Origin: Aspergillus flavus
Lineage: Eukaryota; Ascomycota; Eurotiomycetes; Eurotiales; Aspergillaceae
Direction: 5' to 3'
Length of the DNA stretch: 64,000 bases
Assembly (NCBI RefSeq): GCF_009017415.1
Contig: NC_092407.1
Coordinates: 4,650,001-4,714,000 of the forward strand
The position numbers and the translations under genes were made by a program. The first letter of the stretch is position 1, and the number at the start of each line of letters is the position of its first letter. Below are positions 51,126 through 59,946 of the stretch, in pieces. The notes beneath the pieces are model-generated. The model saw only the letters and a program-made list of their open reading frames with translations, ran no database searches and was not told where the DNA came from.

Positions 51126-51880
51126 GGTTGTTTGAGGGGTATATAGAGTGGCTGATTGGACAACACGATAGGTAGAGCGCCAGACCAGGTTGAGTTATAT
51201 TTGATGTCAAGCTCTCAGCTACGGTCCACTTGGTTTCTTGGTATGGCTACATTGTTTACATAAATCACAACCGGTCTACTATGAAAGGCTGGGCTATACG
51301 GTGGCTTGATATACGAGAGGAGAAGCGGAGAGCGTTTAATTATTCCTCGTATATCATAGCTTAGTCGTGATACCTGTCTAAGGATAAAAATTGAAAACGA
51401 CAATCCTGAGCCCATGCTTAGTCGATACTGTTTTATTCAAGTTGGTTTTAGCCGACTACCAGTATATATATTGATAACCGCATTTCTTCTATCTTCTCAT
51501 ATAGTATTTACCCCTAAAAGTGACAGACTGACGTCTCCACTTACCCCTCCATCGCTCTGCCAAATCATCCTACTCGCCGGATTCCACCGCCCCTCCCCAA
51601 TATAACATGCACTTTTGGAGCATGACTTTTCCCACACGCTGTACACAAACAGCACCAATGTGGTTTTGTACCTCCTCGATTCAGGAGGGTACATTATATT
51701 ATGAAAGAGGAAGCCTCCTTTCTTGGTACAATCGCAACTCCGTGATGGCCAAGTTGCCGCCCAACAATCCTCATGCTCCAGTCTCACTGTCAGAATATCA
51801 ACGTCAGATTTGGAATGACCTGAACAATCCAAGGTTCGCCATTTATTTGCAACGTGACAAAATCCATTCAGCGAGGTGAA
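51126..51880. other. Intergenic region without recognisable genes
   Basis: Frames at 51414-51605, 51497-51910 and 51607-51879 have no recognisable content. No repeats were seen. Confidence 0.45.
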
Positions 51881-52614
51881 ATGCCAAAGACTACCCAACA
51901 ATTCACCCATTGCGACTACACCGTCGGATGGATATGTGCTCTGCCAGAAACTGACTTGGTGGCTTCAGCGGCCATGTTGGATGAAGAGCACCCAACGCTT
52001 CCAGCGGCGGATCCTCAAGACGCGAACTCCTACCTTCTTGGCCATATCGGTGAATGCAGCGAGGATGAGGAAGGTTCGGATGATGAGACAAAAGATACAC
52101 AAGATCTGCGACATTGGGATGTGGTGGTCAGTTTGCATTCGAAGCCAGCCGAAGCTATCATGCAATATGATTTCGGCAAGTCATTGCAGGGAAAGGAGGT
52201 CGTTCATACTGGGGGTAAACTGAACAAACCCCCAGGCATCCTCCTGAGTGCTGTTGGTCGACTCCAGGCCCAGCATGCATTGAAGGGTCACGGGATCTCC
52301 GAGCTGCTGATCAAAATGAGGTCGGACTATCCGGAAAGCACTGCAAAGTTCCAGACGGTATTATGTGCTTTGAGATGGAGGCTGCTGGTATGTTTTACGC
52401 CTACCTACGGAATCTCTACATCTAACCTCTATTTCCAAGGCTTAAATGGATTCATTTCCCTGCTTTGTCATCCGAGGCACTTCCAATTATGCTGATTCCC
52501 ATAAGAACAAGATATGGCAGCCATATGCCGCTGCCGTTGCTGCCTCATACGCAAAAGAACTTCTGTTTGTTATTCCAGGGCAGGGAACTATGGATCAACT
52601 TCCGGTTAACCAAT
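51881..52614 (+). pseudogene. Decayed NLR-type nucleoside-phosphorylase-like domain fragment
   Basis: The frame from ATG 51881 begins FTHCDYTVGWICALPETDLV and AAMLDEEHPTLP, then NSYLLGHIGE. This is the standard start of the PNP_UDP_1 domain that heads many fungal NLR-like (STAND) proteins. The expected nucleotide-binding stretch with its GIGGG motif is absent. An acidic insert (CSEDEEGSDDETKD) leads straight to WDVVVS, QYDFGKS and GGKLNKPPGILLSAV. A second gap follows. Then [29 protein letters not shown] and [19 protein letters not shown] appear in shifted frames across an old intron (about 52390-52440), with an extra A in TTAAATGG at about 52442-52446. The NACHT or NB-ARC ATPase and repeats that normally follow are missing. 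It is a broken remnant of an incompatibility/immunity-type receptor. Confidence 0.8.
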
Positions 52615-53021: not shown

Positions 53022-54785
53022 TCAAAGTGTATATCTGAACTCGGGAAGTCCTTCAATGACAAGCTTCCCCCTTGCTGCCCTTCTGTTCGAGATATAGAAA
53101 TAAAGGCTGAGTATACATACTACCACTATGGACAAGAGATTGCACCTTGTCCAACTGTCAGTAAATAAGCAAAAAAGAGGGAAGAGACCACTCACGCAAT
53201 ACAGGCATAAAGACCTGGTAGGTAGCGGGGAGAATCCTGCGACCGGAACACCAAGGACCCAGCTACACCACCAGTGCCGCCAAAGCTGACGATACTCGCA
53301 CTGCAAAAGGCGCGTTTCCACTGCCCGCGGATATTGTTGGCCTGGTATGTCAGGGCGGCTGGGATTGTAGCATTGGATGCTGATGTGACGAGAAAAATCC
53401 CGAAGTATTGCACGCCGGGAATTTGGACCCAGCCGAGAATGGCTAAACCCACGATGCATTGAACGCAGTTGTAGATGATCAAGGGAGCCCGAATGTGGTA
53501 CTTGTCACCAATCCAGCCTTGAACATACATGAAGATTCCGGCGAAGAAGTAGGGTGGTGTTGTGAGGACTTGTGATGCTGCTTGGGGGAATTTGAGCTCA
53601 CTTCTGAGGATGAGCGGAAGGAAGAACGTAATTGCGTAGGATACAACTGTTGCAGAACTATTGATGGTTAGTGTCTTTGAAACTGGTACAATGGTTTATG
53701 AGCTCACAAGAAGATGAGGGCAAAGCCCCATATTTTGGGGTCCAGAGCAGGCTTTAGGAATTCCTTTAAATTGAACGCCGCTTCAGAGGAGTCCCGTCTA
53801 TCTCGGTTTAGTCGTCGGACGACGAAGGCGGTTTCCTCCTTGGAAAGAAACTTCCAAGAGAGATTGTTCTCGTTGGGGAAGTTGACAATCAAAAAGAAGC
53901 CAACCACTCCGACAAGACAGGTGAGGATGCCTTCCATAACAAAGATCCACCTCCATGCGCTCAAATTCCCAAGGCCATTCATGTGTACGAAGCCATACGA
54001 GAGGATTCCAGAGAAAGCACCCCCGATGACACTAATCAAGTAGAAGGATGAATATCTCTTGTGTAGGTCGTCTGAACAGATTAGCCGCGAATATTCACAA
54101 CTAAGAGGGCCTAACACTCACATCGAGTATACCACATAGAAAGGAGATACACGGAGCCAGGGAAGAGTCCGGCTTCAAGAAACCCCAAAACAATGCGAAG
54201 TCCAACGAGCACCGTCCAATTATGTATAAATCCAAATCCCTACCCATGGTTAACCAAGCCTTCGGACAAAAAGGCAGGACCTTATACCATCATAACTATT
54301 CCCCAGGAGAATGTAATTCCAGCAAGGAAGATCTTTGGCCCAATTTCGCGAATCACTGTGATCAAGGGAAATTGAAAGAGGACATAGGGAATGAAAAAGG
54401 TGAGAAGCGTGATGGACTATTGAACAATTAGCACCTGTATTGGGGAGAGAGAATAGTCTGAGACTCACGTAACGAGAGCCAATGTAGAGACGAAGCTCCT
54501 CCTCCATGCTTTGGCTTTATCAGCATGATATCCATCCAGAACGTCGAGGAGGACGACTTACCCAGCAATCATAGCATTTCCCAGGTTGGTTCGATCCACC
54601 AAACTGACGCACATGAGAAGCCCTAAGCCTGTGACTAGCCTTCGATCGATCTTGTGTAGGATCTTTCTCTGTTCTCGAGGCGAGTAGACCTCATCCCTAT
54701 CCAAATCACCCTCCACATTGTCTAAGCCTGATACAGACCCACTCGAGTGTATTTTCTCGTCCAGATATGTTTCAGCGTCCGACAT
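53022..54785 (-). CDS. MFS transporter of the anion:cation symporter (Dal5/allantoate permease) family, 489 aa, 7 exons
   Basis: Exons on the minus strand are 54785-54562, 54508-54469, 54416-54288, 54239-54122, 54071-53708, 53657-53196 and 53154-53022 (1470 nt), with all junctions GT-AG and in phase. The ATG at 54785 (MSDAETYLDEKIHS) is preferred over an upstream in-frame GTG. The N-terminal cytosolic tail leads to LVTGLGLLMCVSLVDRTNLGNAMIAG, the canonical TM1 start of fungal ACS permeases. Later landmarks are FFIPYVLFQFP, WTVLVGLRIVLGFLEAGLFP, WYTRYDLHKRYSSFYL, and a central loop with LNRDRRDSSEAAFNLKEFL. The second six-helix half contains AALTYQANNIRGQWKRAF. About 12 TM helices are expected. 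Relatives carry allantoate, nicotinate, pantothenate and sulfonate-type anions. It is divergent from the alkylsulfatase at 55338 and probably imports that enzyme's substrate. Confidence 0.92.
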
Positions 54786-55337
54786 GGTGTTTGGTTTGCC
54801 GCCGTTCCAGCGGTAAGTGACGCGACCTTCGACATCTCGAGGTACAGTCCCCAGAACCTTCTTATAACAATCCTTTCCTCTCACCTCGGTTCAATGTTTA
54901 TACTTCCGTGGCATCGTTGATCACATCATTCTAGGGCGAAGTTGCACATTGATAGCCTTCTCGAGGATTGTATGAGCTACCATTGGTCCCCGCGAAATTA
55001 TAAATTTAGGGGCGGGGAAAGTGGGTATCGGCTTTCGTTAAGCTCTGCCTGCACTTAGCCATATTCGGCAAGTGAATCGTGAGGTTATCTAAGCATCCTT
55101 CTGGCTAAGCCTTCATTGAAACTTTATGGGCGGTACTGGCCGAACCGAGGCTTGCGAGTGATTCACTTTCTTTCCTCGCATGTTTGTCTTTTACTTTTTT
55201 TATTTACTTGATTATTTATTATTTTACTCGCCAGAGCACAATATATAAACACTTCCTCCCGCCGACTTGTGAAAGAGTATAGCACCAATACCAACCGATC
55301 AAACGACGGATTCCACGTGTAATACATATCCTAAATC
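54786..55337. promoter_or_regulatory. Shared divergent promoter of permease and alkylsulfatase
   Basis: The 552 bp between start codons include a TATATAAA box at 55242-55249, about 90 bp upstream of the sulfatase ATG. ATCACATCAT lies at 54920-54929. Read on the minus strand it is ATGATGTGAT, a 9-of-10 match to the ATGRYRYCAT consensus of the sulfur regulators CYS3/MetR. A G-rich block (AGGGGCGGGG, about 55009-55018) is also present. Only a binding assay could establish function. Confidence 0.5.
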
Positions 55338-57164
55338 ATGACCTTCTCGCCCTCCTTCAATGACCGAACCGATTTTGATAACGCTACCCGAGGGTTTATC
55401 CATGCATTAAAACCATGTATCATCCGAAACTCGAGTGGCCGCGTAGTGTGGAACAACGACGAGTACGGTTTTCTCCAAGACGCAGAATGCCCTGCCACTG
55501 CCGAGCCAAAACTGTGGCGACAAGGCCAATTGAACTCCATCCAGGGTCTTTTCCAAGTAACTGACGGAATTTACCAAATTCGAGGCTTCGATCTCTCGAA
55601 CATGACCGTCGTTGAGGGACACAAAGGTGTTATTGTGATTGACCCGTTGACGTCGGTCGAATGTGCAGCGGCGGCACTAGCGCTTTACCGTGAACACCGC
55701 GGGGACCGGCCAGTAACCGGTTTGATCTATTCACACTCACATGTAGATCATTTCGGTGGAGCTCAGGGCGTGCTCCAACAAGGCACAAATACATCGATAC
55801 CTATCATCGCCCCGGAGGGTTTCATGGCCGAAGCGACTAGCGAGAACATCTACGTCGGCGATGCCATGCGCCGGCGTGCAGGGTATATGTACGGCATGCG
55901 ATTACCAAAAGGGCCAGATGGTCACATTGGCTGTGGCCTTGGAATGATGCCGTCTAGTGGAACAATGTCATTGATTCCTCCAAATGTCTCTATCTGCCAC
56001 ACAGGCGAGAAACGGACGGTGGATGGCATTCGTATTGAGTTCCAAATGGTACCTGAAACCGAGGCACCGGCGGAGATGAACTTCTACTTTCCCGAGCACA
56101 AGGCACTTTGCATTGCTGAATGCGCAACTCATTGCCTTCACAATATAATCACTCTTCGCGGGGCTTTGGTTCGTGACGCGAAGGCCTGGGCACGCTATCT
56201 TGACGAAACAGCAGTGCTCTATGGGCAGAAATCCAATGTGCTCTTTGCTGGCCACAACTGGCCGACCTGGGGACAGGATGAAATCGTCAAGTTCATATCG
56301 GAGCAACGAGACCTCTACACCTATCTCCATGACCAAACTGTCCGGATGATGAATATCGGCCTGACAGGCATCGAGATTGCAGAGAGATTCACCCTCCCAC
56401 CAGCACTGCAAATGGCGTGGCATGCGCAGGGTTTCTATGGCTCTGTCAGTCATAATGTCAAGGGAATCTACCAACGCTATCTGGGTTGGTTTGATGGGAA
56501 TCCAGCACACTTATGGGAGTACCCAGCGGCTGAAGCTGGTCAGAGATACATTGACTGTATGGGAGGTGTAGATGAGGTTGTTCGAAAGGCAAGAAAGTAT
56601 GCCAGCGAAGGTGATTCACGCTTTGCGGTGACACTATTGGGCCATGTCATAGCCGCTCATCCTGAACACAAGGAGTCAAGACTTGCGCTGGCATCTGTGT
56701 ACACGAAACTGGCATATGGCTGTGAGAATGCGACATGGCGCAACTTCTACCTTTCCGGTGCCCAGGATATGCACTCTCCTCCCCCGCCAGATCGTCCAGA
56801 ACCCCCGAAGCGCGAATACAGGGCTGCGCTATCGATGGAACAACTGCTTACTCTTCTGTCAGTTCAATTGGATGGACCCAAAGCCGCAACAGAATCGTTT
56901 ACGATAGACCTGGATCTGCAAGAACAAAAGCAAAGTTGGCGGCTGATTCTGAGCAACGGAGCCTTGACATATCGCATCAAAACAGATCACGACAGGTCCA
57001 TTGACACGTCTGGTTTGCGTCTAACGCTCACCAAAAAGGAATTGGTGGAGATACTGAATGGGGGTGGAGGGATCCCAGAAAACAGCTCAGAGGGCGATGT
57101 GAGCCTGCTCTTCAAGTTGATGAGATTGGTTGGGGCATCCATGCCCCCAGCAAGCCTTTTGTAA
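55338..57164 (+). CDS. Alkylsulfatase of the metallo-beta-lactamase fold (SdsA1/BDS1 type), 608 aa, intronless
   Basis: One uninterrupted frame, ATG to TAA. The catalytic di-zinc site shows as SHSHVDHFGG (His133, His135, Asp137, His138), followed by MNFYFPEHKALCIAE and THCLHNIITLRGA, then LFAGHNWPTWG. These elements and their spacing are those of SdsA-type linear alkylsulfatases, which hydrolyse sulfate monoesters such as dodecyl sulfate to alcohol and sulfate. The middle is an all-alpha dimerisation region (RDLYTYLHDQTVRMMN, then YLGWFDGNPAHLWEYPA). The last about 110 residues form an SCP2-like substrate-binding domain (MEQLLTLLSVQLDGPKA). No signal peptide is visible, so it probably acts inside the cell. 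The absence of introns beside intron-rich neighbours, and the bacterial affinities of the family, are compatible with an ancient transfer. The yeast homologue BDS1 is a reported case of bacterial origin. Confidence 0.95.
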   Translation: MTFSPSFNDRTDFDNATRGFIHALKPCIIRNSSGRVVWNNDEYGFLQDAECPATAEPKLWRQGQLNSIQGLFQVTDGIYQIRGFDLSNMTVVEGHKGVIVIDPLTSVECAAAALALYREHRGDRPVTGLIYSHSHVDHFGGAQGVLQQGTNTSIPIIAPEGFMAEATSENIYVGDAMRRRAGYMYGMRLPKGPDGHIGCGLGMMPSSGTMSLIPPNVSICHTGEKRTVDGIRIEFQMVPETEAPAEMNFYFPEHKALCIAECATHCLHNIITLRGALVRDAKAWARYLDETAVLYGQKSNVLFAGHNWPTWGQDEIVKFISEQRDLYTYLHDQTVRMMNIGLTGIEIAERFTLPPALQMAWHAQGFYGSVSHNVKGIYQRYLGWFDGNPAHLWEYPAAEAGQRYIDCMGGVDEVVRKARKYASEGDSRFAVTLLGHVIAAHPEHKESRLALASVYTKLAYGCENATWRNFYLSGAQDMHSPPPPDRPEPPKREYRAALSMEQLLTLLSVQLDGPKAATESFTIDLDLQEQKQSWRLILSNGALTYRIKTDHDRSIDTSGLRLTLTKKELVEILNGGGGIPENSSEGDVSLLFKLMRLVGASMPPASLL

Positions 57165-57383
57165 ATGTAGTCTTCTTGGAAATGTATAATGTTATTGCAT
57201 GTTCGGGCCCACAGAAAGTTGTGTGGTAGAAAGGGTGAAAGATTGTACATAGTCGAATGTTATACAATAATGACCCAGATAGCTGGTGCGACATATGCCA
57301 TAGGATGAAAGTCTCCCTAGAAGTATATTAAGTCCACTGTCTTTGTAGGTCCACAGAAAATGAGAGAAGAGGAATTGTCGTGG
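57165..57383. other. Convergent spacer between sulfatase and regulator
   Basis: A 219-bp tail-to-tail gap. Only 3' UTR sequence is expected and none of it looks coding. Confidence 0.6.
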
Positions 57384-59023
57384 TCAAGGAACAGGGGCAG
57401 ACGTGTTTCGTATAGTTCTCGCCATGAACTGTGCCTGCCCTATACCCATGTCATTGCCAATCGTCTCCAGTCGTTCAACCACCCATTCCCGCAAGGTAGA
57501 GCCTAATGGGCTTGTATTGGCCGCTACGTATAGGGGCCAAAGAATCGTGAATCCCCCTAGACAGTGGTCAAGCGATGGAACCTCTGTGGCTCTGTTGTCT
57601 ACAAGTCTAAGTGCGAAAGGAACGCTTTCTGCAATCTCGGTAGCTAGCTGGGCCACAGTCTCTCTAATCTGGACATGTTCTGCTTGGTAGCTTATCTCTG
57701 CGGTGTTGAGAATTAATTGGTTGAGTAGTATCCGAGCACTCCGATAGAAGTTCCAGATATTGCATGCCCAAAGATCAGGGTATACATGATATACCTGGGT
57801 GTAGTAGAACTTCAGGTGGGAAGGGCTCCGGTTGCTCACAGGCCCTCGTATGGTCTGGTAAATCCACCGAGGTGGAAGGCTGTGTTTCCACCGAAGCAGA
57901 TATCTATCAATGGTTGCCGCCGAGGATACTGTATCAGATGCCAAATTCATTCTTGCTTGGGATAGTAGTCGGGCAACGTGGGCAACCAGATCAACCAGCT
58001 CATCGGCTTTCGCGTCGGCCGTTGATCTCTCTGCCATAGCCTGGAGGGACCAGTGCACGATCGATGCCGGAACAGAAAGGCGCCAATGCAAGCAGCTGGC
58101 TATCTAACCGGAGTATCAGTTGTGATAAAGGCTTCCAAGACAGTTCTATTAGTGCTTACGATCTGGACTCGCAGGTGGGTGAACATCCTCATGCCGACAA
58201 TCCATTTGATTTGCTCAGCGCCTCGCATTTCTATGAGGGCTGCAGCACCGCGAACATGCTGTGCCCATGACTGTAAAGAGGATGGAGTGTTGCAAGTCAA
58301 GACCTACTGGAATCAATAGGTTTACTCGGAATAAGGTAACCCAACCTACCTCAAACATGCCAAGAAGCATCGTCGCCGCTAGTGTAGCGTCGCTCTTACA
58401 TTGAGTTCCATCTTTCAAAGTGCAGTTGATCAGATGCAACGCTTGTGTATATTCCCCAGTCGCTTTAGTCATCAATTCAGTGGACTTTTTGATGTTCGAT
58501 AGCCCTGCTAAGCCTACTGCGACTAGACTCTGCATTACTAATGGGTTGGTTGCCGCGAGCACTTCCATTTGGGAGGCACTCAAATAGATAGGTATATTGT
58601 GTACATCGTCAAGCACATAGTACCGAAAGAAAAATCCGACTGATTCGGCGGAGGTGGAGGAAGGTAGGGACGCAGGGAGAGACTGTAGAGATTGAGCAAC
58701 AACGGCGGCTTTGAAGGCGCGGCGGCTTTGTGGAGCGATTTCTTTTGCTGAACTGACTTGTCGCTCAGTCCTGTATTGAGCAGATCGAACCCGAGATCTA
58801 ACTTTCTCGTTCTCATTGCGATAATACACTTGTTGCGGATCACGGTAGCCTGGGCAAGAGAAGGATGCTCGCACACATTGCGAACAAGTCGGTTCTGCTC
58901 GATCACACTGTCGACCAACGATTAGCAAGGTCTTCAATATAATGGGAGACGGCAAGAGGGTACTTTGATTCGGCGGGTGCGACAATTGCCACACCCTTTG
59001 CTGATACGAGGTCGATAGACCAT
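57384..59023 (-). CDS. Zn(II)2Cys6 transcription factor, 482 aa, 4 exons, likely regulator of the sulfatase locus
   Basis: Exons on the minus strand are 59023-58964, 58907-58350, 58270-58160 and 58103-57384 (60 + 558 + 111 + 720 = 1449 nt). The true start is the ATG at 59023 (MVYRPRISKGCGNCRTRRIK), after which a 56-bp intron leads into CDRAEPTCSQCVRASFSCPG. The spliced cluster has cysteines at 11, 14, 21, 28, 31 and 38 (C-x2-C-x6-C-x6-C-x2-C-x6-C). The long frame beginning at 59201 is spurious because it reads through intron 1 and loses two cysteines. The remainder is the DUF3468-type fungal regulator domain: FFFRYYVLDDVHNIPIYLS, WAQHVRGAAALIEMRGAEQI, and late helices such as ELVDLVAHVARLLSQARMN. 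Its position tail-to-tail with the sulfatase suggests a pathway-specific regulator. This is inferred from position only. Confidence 0.9.
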
Positions 59024-59293
59024 TGCACACAGTGTCAAGAATGCTAAGCTTCCATCTCCCTCGGCGGCCTGAGGAAGCCACGAAGGTCGCTTCCAGCGGG
59101 GCCGTGGCTCCACTCTCGACTAGCCGAAGACAGTTTAGTGGAATAGATTGGAGCGTCCATGGATCCTTCAAATAGATATAGTTATCGTTATCTTTGACCA
59201 AAAGAACAGTGTACTAAGCCACGACAAGGATAGAACAAAACCACTCCTTCCACTCATACCATGCTCCTTGAGCAAGTCTAGCCTAGCCTTCGC

Positions 59294-59946
59294 CTAAATC
59301 ATTCGCAGCATAGAATACCCGATCAATAGCAGAAAGTCCCACCATGCTTGCATCGCAAGAAACATAATAATCCAGTTGGGTTGTTTTGTGCCGGGAAAGA
59401 ATTGTTTGTATTCGAACCAAATGACTGCGTGTGCGAACCCCAACACTACCTTTCCAATAACTGATATCCATATGACAAGTTTCCGCTGTAACAGAGAAAT
59501 GTCATCGCGATCATAGAGGATGGAAACTAGGTAGCCGATCCACGAACAGAAAGAGAGGATGAGGGATAACGACGCAAAGTAAGGAAGCAAAGGGGCTGGC
59601 TCCAGTGGGGTCTAGAATACAGTTAGACGGCTCAAAACAGTCAGATGGACTTGTAGAGTACCCGTTCCGGAGCTGTGTAGCTCTTGTAGGCCCAGTATGT
59701 TGAAGCTATCACGGCGCCGGCAAAGAACAGGGCGCTGAGAAATTGAATCGGAGGGATTGGCGGGGTTGTGTTGATTCCTCTACCTTGCCTGTGTCGGTAG
59801 GGACGCCGCTCTCGTTCGTATCCCGGACTGGAGGAATAGGGTGGTAAAAGTGGATCGGTTTCCATAATTGGCGGACTAACTGTCAAACTGGACGAACGTT
59901 TGAGGCGTTCCAAAGAACTGGTGATCGCTGTTCGGACAAGATCCAT
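59294..59946 (-). CDS. Four-TM membrane protein, 200 aa, 2 exons, unknown
   Basis: Exons are 59946-59662 and 59611-59294 (285 + 318 nt), joined in phase 0 (CGG/GTACTC to TTCTAG). The ATG at 59946 gives MDLVRTAITSSLERLKRSSS. An in-frame ATG at 60012 would add 22 residues of low quality. A disordered N-terminus (LLPPYSSSPGYERERRPYRH) is followed by four hydrophobic helices: FLSALFFAGAVIASTYWAY, ASLSLILSFCSWIGYLVSIL, KLVIWISVIGKVVLGFAHAV and NWIIMFLAMQAWWDFLLLIG. No known domain is recognised. It lies just upstream of the regulator on the same strand, but nothing ties it to the sulfatase function. Confidence 0.75.

Follow-up and report, generated by a model that had tools for sequence, protein, structure and literature searches.

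A compact alkylsulfatase, permease and Zn2Cys6 regulator gene group in Aspergillus flavus as a predicted module for the use of organic sulfate esters

Introduction

According to a passage of PMC5303821, soil sulfonates and sulfate esters are often more prominent than free sulfate. Among the fungal enzymes acting on such esters, Bds1 of Saccharomyces cerevisiae was called in 2018, in a passage of the review by Linder, the only genetically and biochemically characterised fungal enzyme of its family (PMC5857272); passages of the same review describe it as proteobacterial in origin and specific to unbranched primary aliphatic esters, and aryl activity is still ascribed to it in passages of two other papers (PMC8951457; PMC10025432). 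Its gene, BDS1 (YOL164W), is described as syntenic with SOA2, one inactive gene of which YOL163W and YOL162W are the two parts, and in Eurotiomycetes and Basidiomycota the same source reports a JLP1-type dioxygenase gene co-localised with a gene for a predicted transporter (PMC5303821). A fungal type III alkylsulfatase without a signal peptide, MaAts, is reported from Metarhizium acridum in passages of PMC8951457. Here we analyse a group of three genes, encoding an alkylsulfatase, a permease and a Zn2Cys6 regulator, in a 64,000-nt stretch of the Aspergillus flavus genome, hereafter the window (positions 4650001-4714000 of contig C3 in genome G000, which comprises 37.7 Mb in 8 contigs). A preliminary description of this DNA had listed YOL163W and YOL162W as Dal5-subfamily genes, which the published account corrects to the halves of the dead SOA2 gene, and had given Bds1 an alkyl/aryl range, of which the aryl part is credited by two of the above sources and contradicted by the alkyl-only specificity given in the review.

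Results

Spliced gene models and domain matches placed three intact genes at 53022-59023 of the window (Table 1), with the permease gene divergent from the sulfatase gene and the latter tail-to-tail with the regulator gene. The models, motifs and domains bore out the arrangement within 6 kb that the preliminary description had drawn, including its coordinates, an intronless SdsA-type sulfatase with HSHVDH and THxxHN motifs and an SCP2-like tail, and an intact regulator whose six-cysteine cluster is whole after splicing. The group probably represents a compact three-gene module for import and hydrolysis of organic (alkyl) sulfate esters. The ACS-type permease would likely import the ester, the SdsA-type sulfatase, predicted to act inside the cell, would split it into sulfate and an alcohol, and the adjoining Zn2Cys6 protein likely switches on both genes via their shared promoter; the sulfate would be used as a sulfur source and the alcohol perhaps as a carbon source.

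Linkage in other fungi was inferred from listed proteins, either by consecutive locus tags or by contigs equal in size to the base; the listings, clustered at 90% identity, which may hide species, held the best 120 of 8000 and the best 120 of 1005 hits, and a protein unlisted there is not thereby absent from its genome. Regulator, sulfatase and permease carry successive locus tags in A. hancockii (BBP40_003394, _003395 and _003396, respectively), as do sulfatase and permease in E. aquamarina (A1O9_09977 and _09978). All three genes were found on an equal-size contig in P. lagena, and sulfatase and permease on equal-size contigs in P. samsonianum, P. longicatenatum, P. sp. IBT 18751x, P. macrosclerotiorum and P. 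canariense, the chance probability for six full-size contigs to coincide being ~7e-6 with genomes of 30 Mb assumed. Moreover, sulfatase and regulator share a 33-kb contig in A. bertholletiae, and permease and regulator lie on an equal-size contig in P. discolor.

In a tree built from 46 of the 120 listed hits together with the window permease, one 19-row set (Shimodaira-Hasegawa-like approximate likelihood ratio test, 97) held all linked permeases, with none among the remaining 28 rows. Counting only species with both proteins listed and excluding the window, linked permeases made up 8/10 inside the window's clade compared to 0/12 outside it (Fisher p = 1.4e-4). Sulfatase and permease distances co-varied across the nine linked pairs including A. 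flavus (Mantel r = 0.96, p = 5e-5), a value to which shared species history contributes. For the permease segment the A. flavus genome, taken to have ~12,500 genes, gives at least 76 exon matches, and for Zn2Cys6 at least 150 matches (150 of 503 candidates scored), families so large that each single adjacency could arise by chance; by our estimate, chance alone would produce either adjacency at ~1-5% of genes. Recurrence in other species is therefore the sole part of the linkage that goes beyond chance. Near bacterial sulfatases, no relatives of the permease or the regulator were found by tblastn at 1e-3 (0/80 loci, 68 of them >11 kb), and no description of such a module was found in the titles and abstract openings listed by the literature searches.

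Several observations weigh against this reading, here and, for the regulator, the promoter and the permease names, below. Clade permeases of P. riverlandense and R. mackenziei lie away from the listed sulfatase, and the placement of E. aquamarina in the permease tree was flagged as a long-branch join. When rows without known linkage were taken as unlinked, the linkage label showed no significant clustering on the permease tree, requiring 8 changes, a count equalled or undercut in 85/500 shuffles. In addition, a shared contig is weaker than adjacency, for which the evidence is the locus tags of two species. Taken together, we consider the sulfatase-permease pair to be, probably, the conserved core of the module in Aspergillus, Penicillium and Exophiala; the co-occurrence across filamentous fungi that had been proposed earlier holds for the pair, given the 8/10 versus 0/12 contrast.

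The sulfatase, identical to A. flavus protein P0001, contains Lactamase_B, Alkyl_sulf_dimr (8.8e-57) and Alkyl_sulf_C domains, the last being the SCP2-like C-terminal domain, with HSHVDH beginning at residue 133 and THCLHN at residues 264-269. Its domain order and HxHxDH motif are those of the type III (SdsA-type) family. An alignment of 13 proteins showed invariant H133, H135, D137, H138, E242, E261 and H306, which we take to be the metal-site residues. Six distinct PDB alkylsulfatase sequences matched the window sulfatase with E values from 2.8e-163 to 1.4e-141, the aligned part opening at residue 6 or 7 of the query, and at residue 23 to 54 of the chains. No hydrophobic leader or stretch was found at the sulfatase N-terminus; the enzyme is therefore predicted to be intracellular, and its substrate would need importing. 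The AlphaFold model had a mean predicted local distance difference test score of 72, with active-site parts below 50, and was used for the free tail only, in which residues 601-608 were predicted to be disordered.

The C-terminus suggested that the role of these enzymes might extend beyond sulfur. Among the best 120 sulfatase hits, strict peroxisomal-type [SAC][KRH][LM] ends occurred in 14/47 named fungal relatives, with 0.16 expected from composition (twelve SHL, one SKL and one SRL), and in 10/61 unnamed hits, versus 0/12 named bacterial hits; none was found in the 80 actinobacterial loci, 70 of which end in VTP. The named fungal relatives carried S at position -3 in 31/47 cases and L or I at -1 in 32/47, earlier positions being unconstrained, and the nine linked-pair enzymes ended in SHL (4), SRL (1), SSL (2), SAK (1) and, in A. 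flavus, SLL, 5/9 being strict. These counts point strongly to the tripeptide as a family trait of fungal alkylsulfatases, which makes a peroxisomal, carbon-linked role possible. Tailed relatives include P0003, P0072, P0088, P0089 and P0120; the corresponding end in the window lies at 57141-57164.

According to an explanation built on this trait, the module would provide both carbon and sulfur, with the alcohol passed to peroxisomal oxidation and the regulator responding to the substrate instead of sulfur starvation. The tail counts and the predicted disorder of the terminal residues support it, as do the absence of an exact CYS-3 site from the shared promoter and the presence there of two CCTCGG-type hexamers at 54884 and 55145 (0.3 expected), which we assume to be linked with fatty-acid regulators. 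However, the SLL end of the window sulfatase departs from the strict pattern, making peroxisomal import of the window enzyme doubtful, the A. bertholletiae enzyme ends in the similarly non-canonical SVL, and many relatives are without the signal; moreover, the rows are related, and 5 changes account for the strict signal on the 44-row sulfatase tree. We therefore treat this explanation, which is an extension of the import-and-hydrolysis module and not its opposite, as a tentative possibility. The word "peroxisome" was not found in the two papers looked through for it, in a literature search that was not aimed at the term and does not establish novelty.

The shared promoter also bears on plain sulfur scavenging, the function named in the preliminary description; on this view, starvation would induce the genes through the general regulator (MetR/CYS-3 type) and the Zn2Cys6 gene would be secondary. 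One CACGTG (55314-55319) stands 18 bp before the sulfatase ATG, and the known cases are consistent with such control: passages report BDS1 to be upregulated under sulfur limitation (PMC5857272) and Neurospora CYS-3 to control directly a sulfatase, a dioxygenase and 8 MFS genes (PMC8550094). Against this, no exact CYS-3 consensus was found in the 552-bp promoter, where one site with a single mismatch lies at 54920, and the counts in the window are at chance; CACGTG is not in excess (7 in the window versus 11.7 expected), and over part of its range the module is accompanied by a dedicated regulator. Starvation control by itself thus appears doubtful, and the promoter motifs do not decide between it and substrate induction.

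The regulator, identical to AFLA_006150 of A. flavus NRRL3357 (P0241), carries Zn_clus and Fungal_trans_2 domains, and its zinc cluster reads C-x2-C-x6-C-x6-C-x2-C-x6-C once an internal intron is spliced out. Among 28 listed relatives, those with at least 49% identity came from A. flavus, A. sergii, A. pseudotamarii, A. pseudonomiae, A. bertholletiae, A. hancockii, P. discolor and P. lagena, plus one fragment. A relative was not listed for 5/9 linked pairs (P. longicatenatum, P. sp. IBT 18751x, P. macrosclerotiorum, P. canariense and E. aquamarina), the search requiring shared 5-residue words and being able to miss distant relatives; for P. samsonianum, outside these five, the regulator was likewise unlisted by name. 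These gaps, together with the ordinary density of CGG pairs in the promoter (11, compared to a mean of 9.8 elsewhere in the window), would fit a regulator that is a mere neighbour of a functional unit made up of the pair. On the other hand, the regulator gene forms a run of successive tags with both partners in A. hancockii, and in P. lagena, A. bertholletiae and P. discolor one or both partners are found on its contig; the gene beyond it differs, encoding an integral membrane protein in A. flavus and an unrelated MFS protein, without a match in the window, in A. hancockii, so that the conserved stretch seems to end at the regulator. A neighbour without function in the module is therefore unlikely in our view; the regulator marks a more restricted variant of the module than the pair does, and the earlier notion of a dedicated regulator finds support in the four species in which it accompanies one or both partners and is not supported for the five pairs for which it is unlisted. 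Public A. flavus models (P0245, P0246 and P0248) join the regulator to the neighbouring integral membrane protein (window 57384-59946), and an A. hancockii model joins it to the unrelated MFS gene.

The sole PDB relatives of the window permease were two DgoT sequences (E 5.5e-7 and 1.4e-6), of which D46-R47, R126 and E133, presumably involved in proton-coupled anion symport, are retained in the aligned permease. The ACS model TIGR00893 (2A0114) matched with 145.5 bits, well under its curated cut-off of 395, and the HpaX model also matched below cut-off. As a proxy for Soa1-type carriers we used the permeases that stand beside TauD genes in the same genome (n=3); two of them showed 22.3% and 23.5% identity to the window permease and for the third no match appeared at E 0.01, though its segment had matched in the genome scan, and two unlinked paralogues reached 47.2% and 34.4%. 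The window permease is thus not close to the Soa1-type proxy. Each of the three proxy matches has a TauD-type dioxygenase match 1-3 kb away (C2:3543273-3545299, C1:4054633-4058496 and C3:603574-606383), a proximity that represents the known sulfonate-type pairing. That the permease carries another organic anion, for instance an aromatic or other carboxylate, and is linked to the sulfatase by chance or through another pathway would agree with the automatic names of its relatives (e.g. "phthalate transporter"), the breadth of the family, the sub-threshold model matches and the distance from the TauD-linked permeases, but is made very improbable by a linkage confined to one permease clade whose divergence matches that of the sulfatase.

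The A. flavus genome contains a second, intact single-exon sulfatase locus at C5:2863808 (L001, L016 and L017). A further copy at C1:696840 (L002, L018 and L019), whose alignment shifts frame twice, looks disrupted unless the assembly errs. Within the four 9.7-9.8 kb flanks of these two genes the best permease match had an E value of 0.37, and no Zn2Cys6 pattern was found by a scan that misses intron-split clusters, that of the window regulator included. The permease association would accordingly belong to the window lineage and not to alkylsulfatases generally. To the left of the window permease, an open frame at 51824-52495 resembles, by eye, the phosphorylase-type end of a NACHT-like protein and has no evident sulfur connection.

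Table 1 Features of the A. flavus gene group, in window coordinates
Feature	Position	Strand	Description
ACS/Dal5-like MFS permease	54785 (ATG)..53022 (stop)	-	7 exons, 489 aa, MFS_1 7.1e-31
Permease exons	54785-54562, 54508-54469, 54416-54288, 54239-54122, 54071-53708, 53657-53196, 53154-53022	-	introns all GT-AG, 41-53 nt
Shared divergent promoter of permease and sulfatase	54786..55337		552 bp
SdsA-type (type III) alkylsulfatase	55338-57164	+	single exon, 608 aa
Zn2Cys6 / Fungal_trans_2 regulator	59023..57384	-	4 exons, 493 aa
Regulator exons	59023-58964, 58907-58350, 58303-58160, 58103-57384	-	

Discussion

A conserved import-plus-hydrolysis module would name a carrier, an enzyme and a candidate regulator together, and would predict the moulds expected to grow on alkyl sulfates, including detergents. 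It might allow a mould to draw on the sulfur of soil, and perhaps on carbon too. The peroxisomal signal, if real, would mean that these enzymes supply carbon besides sulfur.

The closest bacterial relatives of the window sulfatase are actinobacterial. All 12 named bacterial proteins among the best 120 hits belong to this group (57-60% identity, 797-809 bits), compared to at most 548 bits for the solved bacterial alkylsulfatases, and the best 80 loci kept by a bacterial genome scan were all from Actinomycetota, the query alignment of that scan holding five actinobacterial rows and leaning it towards this phylum. On the 44-row sulfatase tree, which is unrooted, contains no proteobacterial row and shows neither direction nor number of transfers, 30 fungal rows including the window were split from 12 actinobacterial rows with support of 100/98, and the C5 paralogue and a Pseudogymnoascus protein fell on the bacterial side; the C5 sulfatase groups nearer the actinobacterial enzymes than that of the window. 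Linkage required 6 changes on this tree, a count equalled or undercut in 4/500 shuffles, and losses would explain the pattern as well as transfers. The unit had earlier been called transferable; co-inheritance with losses fits equally, and we do not retain the term. A broader scenario, in which filamentous fungi acquired an actinobacterial-type sulfatase, addressed it to the peroxisome, joined it to their own ACS permease and later added the Zn2Cys6 switch, thereby obtaining sulfur and peroxisomally burned carbon from esters and surfactants independently of BDS1-SOA2, with A. flavus now losing the address, is offered as speculation and seems rather doubtful as a whole.

Among characterised enzymes, SdsA1, SdsAP (PSdsA), YjcS and Pisa1 resemble the window sulfatase in domain order and catalytic motifs; they differ in being bacterial, and SdsA1 and the four chains of the best PDB matches have 17-47 residues ahead of the aligned part. 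MaAts shares with the window enzyme its fungal origin, type III assignment and lack of a signal peptide, and differs in its reported role, tolerance of UV-B and heat; no permease partner is mentioned in the passages found (PMC8951457). The JLP1-type pairing likewise links a desulfurising enzyme to an MFS permease, as described in passages of PMC5303821. It involves another enzyme family, and the permeases beside TauD genes in A. flavus show 22-24% identity to that of the window. The yeast BDS1-SOA2 pair is similar to that of A. flavus in that an alkylsulfatase gene is syntenic with an ACS/Dal5-family permease gene (PMC5303821, in part). In contrast to the yeast pair, the A. flavus module has an added Zn2Cys6 gene and a permease that contains introns and is not close to the Soa1-type proxy, and its enzyme is nearest to actinobacterial proteins, whereas BDS1 is proteobacterial by description. 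The different bacterial affinities and the distance of the permease from the TauD-side permeases suggest that the yeast pair is an analogue, and that the same pairing was likely assembled separately in yeast and in the A. flavus lineage. Independent assembly in yeasts and Eurotiomycetes, if true, would constitute a clean case of convergent clustering.

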